Below are positions 52,843 through 57,566 of a stretch of DNA of 64,000 bases, piece by piece. This stretch comes from Saccharopolyspora ipomoeae (GTDB lineage: Bacteria; Actinomycetota; Actinomycetes; Mycobacteriales; Pseudonocardiaceae). The stretch is taken from assembly GCF_029952525.1 (NCBI RefSeq), contig NZ_JASAOF010000018.1:1-64000 (forward strand), written 5' to 3'. Both the position numbers and the translations under genes were made by a program. Under the pieces are notes generated by a model. The model did not search any database and was not told where the DNA came from. It worked only from the letters and a program-made list of their open reading frames with translations. Numbering within the stretch: position 1 is the stretch's first letter; each line of letters starts with the position of its first letter.

Positions 52843-53124
52843 TCAGTTCCGATCTCCGCCAGAATCCGTCGGTGTGCGCAGCGCTGCTGACGCAAACCAG
52901 CGAATTTCCATCCAGGCTTCGACGGTGACGAGGAATGCGGCGGCCATGACGACGACGAGCGCCACCAGAACGGGCCCGGACGCGTGCAACGAGGCCAACT
53001 CGAAGAACGCCCACACCTGGACGGCGGTGAATCCCAGCGTCGTCGCCACGCGACCGAGCAGGCGCGCAGGTGAAGCGCTGCGCTGTTCGGGTGTCACTTC
53101 GCGGGAGAGGTCGTCGGTCAACAT
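52843..53124 (-). CDS. small two-helix membrane protein of unknown function
   Basis: 93 residues, ATG with AGGAGA upstream. Hydrophilic N-terminus (TDDLSREVTPEQRSASPARL), then two predicted helices, VATTLGFTAVQVWAFFELASL and VLVALVVVMAAAFLVTVEAW, and a polar end (RTPTDSGGDRN). No motif recognised. It is divergent from the XRE regulator gene and is bracketed by two inverted repeats with the same 11-bp core. Confidence 0.65.
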   Translation of the reverse strand: MLTDDLSREVTPEQRSASPARLLGRVATTLGFTAVQVWAFFELASLHASGPVLVALVVVMAAAFLVTVEAWMEIRWFASAALRTPTDSGGDRN

Positions 53125-53261: not shown

Positions 53262-54542
53262 TTGACCGAGCGGCCCACACTGTTCGGGGCAGAGCTTCGA
53301 CGATTGCGGAACGAGGCCGGACTGTCGCTCTCCCGGCTCGCGGCAGTCCTGCATTACAGCAAGGGTTATCTCAGCAAAATCGAAACCGGCGGCAAACCAC
53401 CGACTCCCGATCTGGCGCGCCGAGCCGATGTCGCGCTGAATTCCGGGGGAACGCTGTCCGACCTCGTCGCCGAGCATTCGTCGAAAGCACCTCTGCCATC
53501 CGAGATCCCGACCGACGGTGATGAGGTGTGGGTGTTGCGACTCGATTCCGACGGAAGCAGTTCGTTCCAACCGGTGGACCGCAGGAGCGTCCTGACGGCC
53601 GGTGCCGCCTCCGCGGTGGCCTTCGGCGTGGGCGGTTCGCGCGCGCTCGCCGCGACCGGTGCCACCGAACCCTTCCAGGCGATGTTCGCCCAGTTGCGCG
53701 CGCTCGGGCAGACCGCAGGCCCCTCGCTTGTGCTGCCGAGCCTGATCGCCCAGGCGCACTCGCTGCGCGACATGGCCCGCAACGCGAATCCCGCGCAGGC
53801 GGCGGAGATCCTGGCGCTGACGGCCCGCTACGCCGAGTTCGCGGGCTGGATGACCCAGGAGGCCGGGGACGACCGCACCGCGCTGTGGTGGACCGACAAG
53901 TCGGTGCGGCTGGCCGAGGCCGGCGGCGACCGGAGCCTGGGCGCCCACGCGCTGGTGCGCCGCGCGCTGGTCACCCTCTACCGCCACGACGCGCGGGAGA
54001 CCATCGACATCGCACGGCGGGCCCGGCGCGACGCGCTCACCGACCGCATCCGGGGCTGGGCCGCGCTGCACGAGGCCCAGGGGCACGCGCTGGCGGGCGA
54101 CTACGACCGCTGCATGCGCACGCTCGACCTCGCCCGAGCGCACCTCGACTCGGCGCAACCGGAGGCCGGTCCGGTGCTGGGCGCGTCGAACCTGAGCGAC
54201 CCGGTCTCGATGATCACCGGCTGGTGCCTGCACGACCTGGGCCGCACCGACCAGGCAACCGAAGTCCTCGACCGCGAGGTCGCCGGACTGCCCGAGCAGG
54301 CGCTGCGGAATCGCGCGCGCTACGGCCTCCGCCGCGCCCTCGCCCACGCCGCGGCGGGCCAGATCGAGCACGCCTGCGCGCTCACCGCCGACGTGCTTCC
54401 GGTCGTCGACGCGGTCTCCTCCGCCACCGTCCTCACGGACCTGCGCAAGCTCAGCCAGCTGCTGGCCCGGCACCACCGCGTCCCCGCGGTCCAGGCCCTC
54501 CAACCGGCCCTGATCACCTCCCTGCACCACCACAACGGCTGA
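53262..54542 (+). CDS. XRE-family regulator with TPR-like C-terminus
   Basis: 426 residues from TTG 53262 (GGGGGGGCGAG upstream; GTG at 53229 also possible). N-terminal lambda-repressor-type HTH: LRRLRNEAGLSLSRLAAVLH, YSKGYLSKIETGGKPPTPDLARRADVAL. A linker with a hydrophobic stretch (RRSVLTAGAASAVAFGVGGS) resembles a Tat signal but lies inside the protein after the HTH. The rest is helical repeats typical of actinobacterial XRE-TPR proteins (AAEILALTARYAEFAGWMTQ, LRRALAHAAAGQIEHACAL). Such proteins often neighbour and regulate toxin, conflict or peptide-signalling genes; here a TIR gene starts 29 bp downstream. Confidence 0.88.
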   Translation: MTERPTLFGAELRRLRNEAGLSLSRLAAVLHYSKGYLSKIETGGKPPTPDLARRADVALNSGGTLSDLVAEHSSKAPLPSEIPTDGDEVWVLRLDSDGSSSFQPVDRRSVLTAGAASAVAFGVGGSRALAATGATEPFQAMFAQLRALGQTAGPSLVLPSLIAQAHSLRDMARNANPAQAAEILALTARYAEFAGWMTQEAGDDRTALWWTDKSVRLAEAGGDRSLGAHALVRRALVTLYRHDARETIDIARRARRDALTDRIRGWAALHEAQGHALAGDYDRCMRTLDLARAHLDSAQPEAGPVLGASNLSDPVSMITGWCLHDLGRTDQATEVLDREVAGLPEQALRNRARYGLRRALAHAAAGQIEHACALTADVLPVVDAVSSATVLTDLRKLSQLLARHHRVPAVQALQPALITSLHHHNG

Positions 54543-54571
54543 ATCACCCTGCGACTGAATGGAGTTCTTCG

Positions 54572-55231
54572 ATGCCGGACATCTTCGTCAACTACCGCAC
54601 CGGGTACGGGGAACAGGCCGCTGCCCACCTCCAGGACCACTTGTCCGGTCACTTCGGGATCGAGCGCGTGTTCCGCGACTCCACGTCGATCCCGCCGGGC
54701 GACAACTTCGAGCGGCGGTTGCAAACCGCCTCCAGGGATGCGCGCGTGCTACTCGCCGTGATGGGTGAGGGATGGGCCCAGGCCAGGAAGAACGGTCGCC
54801 TCGCGCTCGAGGACCCGACCGACTGGGTCCGGCGGGAGATCCTCAACGCCCGCGAAGCCGGAGTGCGGATCGTCCCCGTTCTGTGCGGGCACAACATGGA
54901 ACCGCCGAGCGCCTCGGAGCTCCCGCCCGAGCTCGCGTTCCTCCCGGACAACCAGGCGCTGCGCCTCGACCACCGCAACACCCGGAGCGACCTCGATCAG
55001 ATCGCCGATCGGTTGGCGGATCTCCTCCCCGGGCGAAGCAAGACGGAGACTCCCAACGTCCAGAACATCAACCACGGCCAGGCCCAAAACCTGATTCAGA
55101 CACACCAGATGGGAAATCTGCACATCGGCGACTCCCACGCGACGTCACATTTCCACGGCAACGTCACGGGTCCGCTGCACACCGGTACGGGTTCCCTCTA
55201 CGCCGATCGCACCCGCGAGGAGGACCAGTGA
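54572..55231 (+). CDS. TIR-domain protein with C-terminal adaptor-like motif
   Basis: 219 residues, ATG about 8 bp after TGGAG. Residues 1-150 are a bacterial TIR domain: PDIFVNYRTGYGEQAAAHLQ (beta-A), ERVFRDSTSIPPGDNF (BB loop), VLLAVMGEGWAQARK (beta-C), DWVRREILNAREAGVRIVPV with E89 in the position of the catalytic NADase glutamate. Residues about 160-188 (VQNINHGQAQNLIQTHQMGN then LHIG) are low-complexity and resemble RHIM-like amyloid signalling motifs of bacterial NLR systems. Residues 192-209 (SHFHGNVTGPLHTGTGSL) match residues 20-37 of the next protein. Its stop overlaps the next start by four bases. A NAD-cleaving effector or adaptor is likely by family; activity is not shown. Confidence 0.85.
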   Translation: MPDIFVNYRTGYGEQAAAHLQDHLSGHFGIERVFRDSTSIPPGDNFERRLQTASRDARVLLAVMGEGWAQARKNGRLALEDPTDWVRREILNAREAGVRIVPVLCGHNMEPPSASELPPELAFLPDNQALRLDHRNTRSDLDQIADRLADLLPGRSKTETPNVQNINHGQAQNLIQTHQMGNLHIGDSHATSHFHGNVTGPLHTGTGSLYADRTREEDQ

Positions 55232-57243
55232 CCACTGAGACCGACGAAGCGGCGCCTCAGCAGGCTTCCACCTGGACCACGCACTCCCACTTCGAGGGCG
55301 ACCAGCACGGTCCCACGCACGCCGGAACCGGCGATCTGAACGTCTACTACACCACCCACGAGAGCGTTCGAGCCCACGCCCGGAGCCCACGTCTGACCCT
55401 CCGCGACGACCTCCGCTGGCTGCGCGTGCGGTTCGTGGAACCGCAGCACCTGTCCTACGCACGAGAACAACTGGCCAAGTCCGGCACCGTCCTGCTCACT
55501 GGCCCGACCGGAAGCGGCCGCACGACGGCGGCGAAGATGCTCGTGGACGAAACCGCCGACGAGAACACCCCTTTCAGCATCCTTCCGGAGGAAGCGCTCG
55601 ATCCGCGGGAGACCTTGTCCAGCGTGAAGGTCTACCCCGATCACCGCTTCGTGCTCGACCTCTCCGACAGCGATCAGGCGGTCTTCCTCGCTCGAATGCG
55701 CGAGCTCCCCGCGTTCCGCACGACTCTGGTCGAACAACACGGCTTCCTCGTAGTTGTGGTTCCCGACGAGTTGGCTCACCACTTGGACCCGGAGCTCAAG
55801 CAGTTCGTCGAGCGGATCAACCGCCCGCGAGGCGACCTCGTGCTCCGCAGGCACCTGCAGGCCGCCGATCTGAACCCCACCGGTGATCAGCTCGACCAGT
55901 CCGAGGTCGCGCAGTGCCTGAAGGCGCCGATGCAGGAGATCGCGGGCGTGGCGGAGCGGGTCACCGAAGCACGCGACAGCCTTCCCGGCGAAGACCTCGC
56001 CCGTTGGCTCAAGGAAGCTGCCGGCGCCAAGGCCCAACGCCGCGAGGAAGTGGCCGAGAAGCTCGCCGCCCACCCCAGCGGCCGGGAACGAGCACTGCTG
56101 CTCGCCTCCGCGATGTGCCGAGGAGCCTCCACGGACGCGGTGTTCTTCGCCGCCGACGACCTGGTTCGGATGATGGAGCTCGACAAGGCTGAGCGGCCAC
56201 GTCTGGAACAGGACGGGTATCGCGCACAGCTCCAACGGCTGAACGTGGAGATCTCACCGCACGACAGCGTCGAGTTCAGCAAGCTGTCCTACGACGAAGC
56301 CGTGCTGGAGCACTTCTGGGACAACTTCCCCGATCTGCGCCCCCAGTTCCGACGCTGGGTTGAACGCGTGATCGAGTTGAGAGCTCTGACCGGCGAGAAC
56401 CGGCTGCGGTTGGTGGACCGCTTCACCGAGCAGGCGCTGCGGACCGGAAGCCCCGAACAGGTCGGTCTCGTCGTCGAGCGGTGGATCTTCCCGAGCAACG
56501 GCAAGTCGAGCCCGCTGCAGGACTTCGGAGTCCGAGCACTGGTCACGGGCTTGAAGGACGCCCGCCACGGCACTCATTTCCGGCGCATGGTCTACCTGTG
56601 GTCACGAGCGCAAGACCTGCCCGAGTGGGTCGGTCAGATCGTCGTCGAAGTGACCGTCGAGGTCATCGCACCGAACTTCCCGGAGCAGGCGGTCGTTCGG
56701 CTGCATCACCGAGCGCGACGCGAATCAGGAGAACTCGCACGCAAAGCGCTGGTCGACCTCGTGCGGCGCGATCTCCCCCAGTACCGGCTCCTGCTGGAGC
56801 GGCTGAGCGACGATCTGACGAAAACTCAGCAGTGGAACGCGGACTTCCTGCTGTTCCTCGACATCGCCGACCCGTTCCTGCTGACCGATACCTCCCAACG
56901 ATCCCGGCCGCTGGGTGCCGACCGGCAGCTGCGGGCCCAGCTGGTCACGTGCTGGCGGACGCTCATGCAAGAGCGCCGCGACCTGGTCGCACAACGGCTT
57001 TACCAGTGGCTCGCGGCCGCAGCCCGCATACCGGATCCGGATGTGCTGCTGGGGATTCTGGTGGATGCCGCGGGAGAGTCGATCTCTTTCCTGGGAGCGC
57101 TCTACGTCGCCGCCAAGGACTGGGCCGACGCAGCGGAAGGACATCCCGAGGTCGCGATCCGGTTGGCGCAGTTGATCGATCGTGCTCAGGGCGTGCAGAA
57201 CCAGGACTACGCGTACCCACGACCGGAGGAGTTCGTGCTGTGA
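55228..57243 (+). CDS. P-loop NTPase, STAND-like, with N-terminal motif shared with the TIR protein
   Basis: 671 residues from GTG (GAGGAGGA upstream), overlapping the TIR gene by four bases. Residues 20-37 (SHFEGDQHGPTHAGTGDL) align with the TIR C-terminus at 11 of 18 positions. Residues about 55-80 (RLTLRDDLRWLRVRFVEPQH) form a linker I recall from other uncharacterised actinobacterial NTPases. The Walker A is GPTGSGRT (residues 92-99); VLDLSD and FLVVVVPDE are Walker B candidates. After an ATPase core to about residue 260 comes a long helical region without recognisable WD or TPR repeats (residues 300-671), presumably the sensor. The design is that of a signal-transducing NTPase coupled to an effector. 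Function not established. Confidence 0.8.
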   Translation: MTTETDEAAPQQASTWTTHSHFEGDQHGPTHAGTGDLNVYYTTHESVRAHARSPRLTLRDDLRWLRVRFVEPQHLSYAREQLAKSGTVLLTGPTGSGRTTAAKMLVDETADENTPFSILPEEALDPRETLSSVKVYPDHRFVLDLSDSDQAVFLARMRELPAFRTTLVEQHGFLVVVVPDELAHHLDPELKQFVERINRPRGDLVLRRHLQAADLNPTGDQLDQSEVAQCLKAPMQEIAGVAERVTEARDSLPGEDLARWLKEAAGAKAQRREEVAEKLAAHPSGRERALLLASAMCRGASTDAVFFAADDLVRMMELDKAERPRLEQDGYRAQLQRLNVEISPHDSVEFSKLSYDEAVLEHFWDNFPDLRPQFRRWVERVIELRALTGENRLRLVDRFTEQALRTGSPEQVGLVVERWIFPSNGKSSPLQDFGVRALVTGLKDARHGTHFRRMVYLWSRAQDLPEWVGQIVVEVTVEVIAPNFPEQAVVRLHHRARRESGELARKALVDLVRRDLPQYRLLLERLSDDLTKTQQWNADFLLFLDIADPFLLTDTSQRSRPLGADRQLRAQLVTCWRTLMQERRDLVAQRLYQWLAAAARIPDPDVLLGILVDAAGESISFLGALYVAAKDWADAAEGHPEVAIRLAQLIDRAQGVQNQDYAYPRPEEFVL

Positions 57244-57566
57244 GCAAGGAGAACCGGATCCTCTACATCGGACTCGGGATCGCCGTGCTGATCCCGCTGG
57301 TGTTCGGGCTCGTGCTGGAATGGCCTGCGTGGGTGGTGGTTCCGCTGCTGGCGGGCGTCGGGTGGGGTGTGTTCAAGAAGCTGACCGGTGGGGCGCGCAC
57401 GCCGTCGGATCACGTCGGTATGCTGCTCGACCAGCTCGGGTTGCACGGCGAGCGCAACCCGGTGCGCAGGCTGACCGCGCACCGGTTCGCGAAGCTCATC
57501 GAGGCGGCCGGACACCCGCAGGTCGCCGAGGACGTCCGCCGCCGGTTCGACTCGCCGGATGCGTGA
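57240..57566 (+). CDS. small two-helix membrane protein of the TIR-NTPase operon
   Basis: 108 residues from a GTG overlapping the NTPase stop by four bases (GTGA), which ties it to the operon. Two close predicted helices, ILYIGLGIAVLIPLVFGLVL and WVVVPLLAGVGWGVF, near the N-terminus are followed by a basic soluble tail of about 65 residues (RTPSDHVGMLLDQLGLHGER and onward). Small two-helix proteins accompany several immune operons as membrane effectors, but this one could equally be an anchor. No known family recognised. Confidence 0.7.
   Translation: MSKENRILYIGLGIAVLIPLVFGLVLEWPAWVVVPLLAGVGWGVFKKLTGGARTPSDHVGMLLDQLGLHGERNPVRRLTAHRFAKLIEAAGHPQVAEDVRRRFDSPDA

Follow-up and report, generated by a model that had tools for sequence, protein, structure and literature searches.

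A TIR and STAND-protein operon of Saccharopolyspora ipomoeae with a motif common to the effector tail and the receptor head

We analyzed a 64,000-nucleotide stretch of the soil actinobacterium Saccharopolyspora ipomoeae (contig NZ_JASAOF010000018.1, positions 1 to 64,000; hereafter the window), which carries a row of four genes coding for an XRE-TPR regulator, a TIR protein, a STAND-type nucleoside triphosphatase (NTPase) and a membrane protein. The recomputed coordinates bear out this row as described in a first-pass annotation of the same DNA: the XRE and TIR genes are separated by about 30 bp, and the TIR/NTPase and NTPase/membrane junctions are each 4-bp overlaps. The genes and the features within them are:

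53262-54542, + strand: XRE-TPR regulator, NsdA family; XRE helix-turn-helix and TPR-like part; TTG start
54572-55231, + strand: TIR effector, 219 amino acids (aa); presumed catalytic glutamate E89
55058-55129, + strand: first TIR tail motif VQNINHGQAQNLIQTHQMGNLHIG, BASS/RHIM-like; TIR aa 163-186
55145-55198, + strand: second TIR tail motif SHFHGNVTGPLHTGTGSL, common to the NTPase head; TIR aa 192-209
55228-57243, + strand: STAND-type receptor NTPase (nSTAND3), 671 aa; GTG start
55285-55338, + strand: NTPase head motif SHFEGDQHGPTHAGTGDL; NTPase aa 20-37, inside a segment (aa 1-40) with a predicted local confidence (pLDDT) <50
55501-55524, + strand: degenerate P-loop GPTGSGRT; NTPase aa 92-99, arginine replacing the Walker A lysine
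57240-57566, + strand: membrane protein, 108 aa, the short form of its family; GTG start

The tail of the TIR protein and the head of the NTPase are linked by a common motif, SHFHGNVTGPLHTGTGSL in the former and SHFEGDQHGPTHAGTGDL in the latter, identical at 11 of 18 residues. The match had been placed at the C-terminus of the TIR protein; the 11 identities hold, but the position is not strictly C-terminal, since 10 residues come after the motif. Among 4417 open reading frame tails from the window and 60 relative loci, a score of 64 is reached by the TIR frame alone, the runner-up scoring 47. A motif profile of 34 rows, both window rows included, recovers the NTPase head (5.8e-8) and the TIR tail (3.0e-7) from the whole genome (6.63 Mb), the next places being at 0.154, antisense to a frame read as rimP, and at 9.12. 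With the window rows held out of the profile the TIR tail is still recovered (1.35e-3), while the NTPase head drops out at E<=0.01. Across 22 Saccharopolyspora genomes, again with the window rows out, there are 21 motif matches at E<=0.01, all in cassette-type loci, including the NTPase-less locus of one genome (our handle G350) and a second locus (L061) of another (G351); many Saccharopolyspora rows were in the profile, and the informative part is the lack of places elsewhere.

At E<=1e-10 and with the window genome counted, relatives of the NTPase are found in 118 of the 390 genomes of the window's family, spanning 28 of 46 genera, and class-wide an NTPase profile finds them in 27 of 394 genomes and 14 of 138 genera (E<=1e-30). 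The family set comprises the 60 better-scoring relative loci and the window, 61 in all, from which three (L074, L077, L085) were dropped as their upstream frame is not credible, leaving 58. It was supplemented by 40 named loci from Saccharopolyspora, Actinopolyspora, Amycolatopsis, Streptomyces, Frankia, Actinomadura, Kribbella and others, about half of which duplicate the family set, and by 28 class-wide loci, which also contain repeats. Scoring each receptor head against the tail of its own neighbor gives a mean of 60.9 over the 58 loci versus 33.3 (standard deviation 1.5) for shuffled pairs (0/2000). The same holds for 21 representatives (67.0 versus 34.5), the 39 loci with TIR partners alone (49.8 versus 33.4), the 18 with cyclase-like partners alone (82.5 versus 38.2) and the 20 named loci outside the family (53.9 versus 42.4), each with 0/5000. 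The neighbor's tail also outscores that of every other frame of the same locus in 43 of the 57 relative loci. Some pairs have a quite different common sequence, e.g. GSVRGNRNIAITDPRGAV with GSVWGNRNISITDPRAAV in L062 and VQGDVHQSRDHI with VEGDVHQSRDHI in L080. That the resemblance is chance or low-complexity sequence might be argued from the short glycine-rich segments and from a match of merely 11 in 18; this is contradicted by the shuffled-pair tests, the ranking of frame tails and the genome-wide profile, and we regard it as vanishingly improbable. Hence, by sequence comparison the shared motif is beyond chance, because the genome-wide profile is significant only at the head and the tail and because own heads and tails outscore shuffled pairs in the 58 loci. 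These two being the sole significant places, the motif is not a general low-complexity feature of the genome, the outcome that would have spoken against the first-pass proposal.

The TIR protein scores 38.6 bits with Pfam TIR_2 (cut-off 28) and is the single TIR_2 protein of its genome at E<=0.01. Its closest PDB match is the SARM1 TIR domain (4e-9), with E89 in register with the glutamate of the SARM1 stretch DWVHKEI, which we take to be the catalytic residue. This glutamate is kept in 37 of 39 TIR relatives, the other two having gaps. The TIR protein therewith carries the presumed catalytic glutamate of SARM1-like NADase TIR domains and would be predicted to cleave NAD. Our own profiles divide the partners of the 58 loci into 39 TIR, 18 cyclase-like and one unassigned short frame (L061), of which Pfam TIR_2 on its own labels 36. 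The partners are 37 TIR, two cyclase-like and one fragment in the 40 named loci, and 17 TIR, nine cyclase-like and two unassigned in the class-wide loci. The cyclase-like proteins conserve the stretches VVDVKDFSG, TTGDGY and RMRVSVNVGP, which hhalign places in register with the equivalent parts of class III cyclases, at a probability of 78.6 (E 1.7e-5). From the partner counts and this register we therefore conclude, at the level of sequence, that two effector types, TIR or cyclase-like, are exchanged on one receptor family. A TIR or cyclase-like partner thus recurs beside the NTPase, as the proposed pairing would have it, and unpaired NTPases do not undermine it: 57 of the 61 loci have such a partner, three lack a credible upstream frame and one has a fragment. 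Apart from this, the tails of the cyclase-type partners in L197, L198 and L199 end in a BASS-like sequence (VVQAGTVNGGV and similar) and not in the GPVHTGSG motif, and many relatives (e.g. L031, L043, L048) have a third conserved tail segment resembling GDGxNYVAGxNxGGIxQxFG, which the window TIR protein does not have.

Among STAND proteins, the NTPase is of the nSTAND3/Avs type. It scores 28.7 bits with Pfam nSTAND3, just above the cut-off of 27.2, and consists of a disordered head, a P-loop domain, a winged-helix-like part and helical repeats. Its AF2 model has a pLDDT of 87.2, with about 40 low-confidence residues before the core; the top two Foldseek matches of the model are Avs4 and Avs5, a likeness at the level of domains, with a whole-model TM-score of ~0.2. 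nSTAND3 is matched in 28 of 28 NTPases scanned, and NACHT and NB-ARC are absent from the ten families that these match at E<=0.01. At the Walker A lysine position, 98 sequences show arginine in 91, leucine in three, threonine in two, methionine in one, no match to the pattern in one and lysine in none; in an alignment of 40 (A6) arginine occurs in 39. The earlier label "STAND-like NTPase" is therefore apt for the STAND/nSTAND3 fold, but not for the Walker A lysine (GxxxxGK), which the family lacks in these 98 sequences.

Downstream, 55 of the 58 loci have a gene for which simple hydropathy predicts a membrane helix, at an offset of exactly -4 in 46; one of the three misses, L040, has the membrane gene by other comparisons. 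The product is short (104-124 aa) in 20 loci and long (330-703 aa) in 35. The one long form modelled, from Umezawaea (pLDDT 79.4, predicted TM-score 0.47), finds its best PDB matches in the major vault protein (1.8e-4) and HflK/C (3.8e-4), followed by a further SPFH-family structure (9.1e-4), erlin (1.2e-3) and, at 0.049, stomatin, with low whole-model TM-scores; going by this model, the long form looks SPFH-like. The 108-aa protein of the window, which matches no Pfam family, does not have the SPFH-like middle domain, and by eye its C-terminus is similar to that of the long form. The constancy of the membrane gene raises the alternative that the TIR and cyclase-like enzymes make nucleotide signals to which the membrane or SPFH-like protein, as the true effector, responds. 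The swapping of two nucleotide-using enzyme types while the NTPase and membrane genes remain would fit this, as would the proposal of Kaur et al. (PMC7159879) that in related systems TIR domains and cyclic nucleotide (cNMP) cyclases produce the signals. However, Pfam finds no ligand-binding family in 23 long membrane proteins, giving a few weak, chance-like matches, and the Saccharopolyspora form has no SPFH-like part; on balance we consider this second-messenger version rather unlikely, though the strongest of the rivals.

The genes behave as a cassette in Saccharopolyspora, being present in some genomes and absent from others. Of the 22 genomes, 21 have the upstream regulator, 15 the XRE gene, 15 the TIR gene at the cassette site, 15 the membrane gene (plus one partial copy elsewhere) and, besides the window, 13 the NTPase, at 49-56% identity. 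In seven of the 22 the cassette genes are not found, one partial membrane-gene match excepted, and G360 has an empty site, with 101 bp between the two flanking genes. A further gene accompanies the Saccharopolyspora cassette:

52846-53121, - strand: small divergent two-helix membrane protein, ~92 aa

Homologs of this protein (36-83% identity) occur in 13 of 13 compared Saccharopolyspora cassette loci (L034 left out), and neither the empty site L202 nor any of L203-L206 gives a match to it. Between the flanks, the genes differ in divergence: the window XRE protein is 92% identical to that of G350 and 78-79% to those of three close species, and the membrane protein 82-89%, versus 45-49% for the TIR domain in the same relatives and 52-54% for the NTPase (three species only). 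We read the TIR-NTPase pair, on these identities, as replaced or fast-diverging between stable flanks; identity-matrix correlations do not single it out.

The close relative G350 keeps the XRE gene, the TIR gene with its tail motif and the membrane gene, whose start is also affected, the NTPase being gone save its first codons; the loss maps to about 5248-5300 of L150 (G350:C12:504000-514000). Retention of the TIR gene agrees with what activation of the TIR protein by the receptor would predict. Were the pair instead a toxin and its inhibitor, the NTPase head keeping the TIR protein inactive, as the gene overlaps and the binding-type motif might be taken to mean, a freed toxin should have been lost or broken; an inhibitor role is therefore disfavored, provided that the TIR gene of G350 is expressed, and we think it very unlikely.

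The regulator matches Pfam HTH_31 (2.5e-14) and NCBIfam NF053720 (184.5 bits, cut-off 75). Homologs, a few of them partial, occur in 32 of the 60 relative loci, in 31 on the same strand and preceding a TIR gene; in L072 an NsdA-like regulator lies inverted next to a TIR-type locus. NsdA acts in Streptomyces differentiation, and this role, together with the same-strand NsdA-family regulator of the 31 TIR loci, would speak for a developmental or stress operon governing a cell-fate switch in filamentous growth instead of immunity. Such a function sits poorly with the absence of the cassette from the seven genomes, the empty site of G360 and the strong divergence of the TIR-NTPase pair, and we hold it to be improbable.

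A separate line of evidence concerns the first tail motif of the TIR protein, matched at 1.8e-4 by a profile that contains its own row. VVNINKGQVTNLVQTREI, the tail of a 124-aa protein of the same genome (L171:4709-5080), is identical to it at 10 of 18 residues, and frames of 135-139 aa with a match to the motif occur in seven of the 22 Saccharopolyspora genomes. Seven other profile matches in the genus comprise four N-terminal in NACHT- or NB-ARC-like proteins and three ending the same small protein (labels by eye). The segment GQAQNLIQTHQMGNLHIG, previously called RHIM-like, matches this small-protein tail (10 of 18) and the NLR-like heads of the genus, not the NTPase head. The RHIM core is [IV]Q[IVLC]G; read by eye, the window has LIQTHQMG, in which Q-M-G alone fits. 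The 124-aa protein receives no family name from Pfam and resembles the description of BELL in PMC7889193. Hence, going by these matches, the TIR protein may be reachable by other signalosomes through the first motif.

Taken together, the best explanation, which we favor with some reservation, is a receptor-effector operon in which the STAND head templates the TIR tail, the membrane protein anchors the complex and the XRE-TPR protein regulates it. The STAND receptor would sense a trigger via its helical repeats; upon activation, its flexible 40-residue head would pass into an ordered, probably amyloid-like assembly and template the matching TIR tail. The clustered TIR domains, if they act like SARM1-type ones, would cleave NAD+, halting the cell or making a signal, and the membrane protein, whose long form is probably a scaffold of the SPFH type, would hold the complex at the membrane. 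What the sequences themselves show is the operon, the common motif recurring across many loci, the substitution of a cyclase-like enzyme for the TIR protein beside one receptor family, and the presence or absence of the cassette; amyloid formation, NAD cleavage and phage defense are inferred. The shared motif suggests that a receptor-like protein switches on a likely NAD-destroying enzyme, in analogy with the cell-death immunity of fungi and animals.

Several observations weigh against this explanation. A head matches its own tail better than the tail of the nearest relative in 23 of the 58 loci, worse in 30 and equally in five, and in just 16 does the own tail come out on top of all tails. 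Since the tail of the nearest relative matches equally well, the specificity of the motif, as judged from sequence, is at the clade and not at the pair level, with no fine lock-and-key. Moreover, 19 of the 58 loci score <45 (39 score >=45), a reversed-tail null having its 99th percentile at 43 and its maximum at 61, and seven TIR loci (L058, L060, L067, L070, L075, L078, L082) score <=27 and show no common motif by eye. The first TIR motif (aa 163-186) has no counterpart in the NTPase head, a classical STAND switch is doubtful because the P-loop is without its lysine, and among the neighboring frames, read by eye, we noticed no known defense genes.

A more far-reaching reading, possible but doubtful, is a distinct form of immunity in Actinomycetes: a lysine-less Avs-like STAND protein would act by assembly and not by ATP hydrolysis, templating interchangeable TIR or cyclase effectors via short tails of the amyloid type at an SPFH-type membrane platform. 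The TIR protein would also be able, by its first tail motif, to join the other amyloid signalosomes of the cell, those of the BELL-like protein and, in the genus, of the NACHT/NB-ARC-like receptors. If the templating scheme holds, amyloid-type signaling would extend beyond NACHT/NB-ARC receptors into the Avs branch of the immune STAND proteins of bacteria and be tied to the chemistry of TIR proteins and cyclases at an SPFH-type platform. The natural effector exchanges and the natural receptor loss provide test material for how short motifs set signaling specificity.

The combination had been thought to match no named defense system, and PADLOC gives weak matches alone: the regulator matches HTH_VI (1e-7) and capH (2.3e-5), the NTPase mad8 (6.8e-6) and the TIR protein ThsB (0.0044, no cut-off given), and the 108-aa membrane protein has none. 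Membership in Thoeris (type III ThcB4/ThsB) was rejected, ThcB4 scoring 24.3 bits, below the curated cut-off of 220. A literature search over titles and abstract openings, with most subscription journals outside its coverage, found no nSTAND3-TIR system with a common motif among the papers listed. Bacterial amyloid NLR signalosomes with BASS motifs were reportedly treated by Dyrka et al. in 2020. Those reviewed in PMC7889193 come from Actinobacteria and have adjacent or overlapping genes and a motif at the receptor N-terminus and the effector C-terminus; TIR effectors are mentioned among them. The layout recognized in the first-pass annotation is of this known kind, here as a conserved TIR/STAND/membrane operon that is repeated with a second effector type; the same motif is found at the receptor N-terminus and the C-terminus of the neighboring effector, weakly in 19 of the 58 loci. 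However, the window receptor is nSTAND3/Avs-like and not NACHT or NB-ARC, and its family has a degenerate P-loop, a recurrent membrane partner and a cyclase-like alternative effector. With Avs5 (AVAST type 5; PDB 9jap, 9nc9) it shares nSTAND3, and with both Avs5 and Avs4 (8dgf) an NTPase followed by C-terminal helical repeats. According to PMC12931631, Avs5 fuses a Sir2 effector and requires its P-loop lysine, whereas in the window the effector is a separate protein, none being fused N-terminally, and the Walker A lysine is arginine. The pattern is similar by eye to the fungal sigma/GDQN amyloid motifs of PMC12261475, e.g. GxGDQN; Pfam NACHT_sigma matches two of the 58 partners weakly (best 9.1e-4), and a rescan of nine proteins, P0002 and P0003 included, gives zero matches at E<=10. 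Effector-associated domains (EADs), as described in PMC7159879 and PMC8195603, likewise provide a homotypic adaptor joining a core NTPase to exchangeable TIR or cyclase effectors, but nine of 12 EADs there are helical domains, while the receptor motif here is a glycine-rich segment predicted to be disordered. The operon thus lacks the receptor type of BASS systems and departs from Avs5 in P-loop and architecture; by analogy, it most likely resembles a bacterial amyloid NLR signalosome in its action, with another class of receptor.

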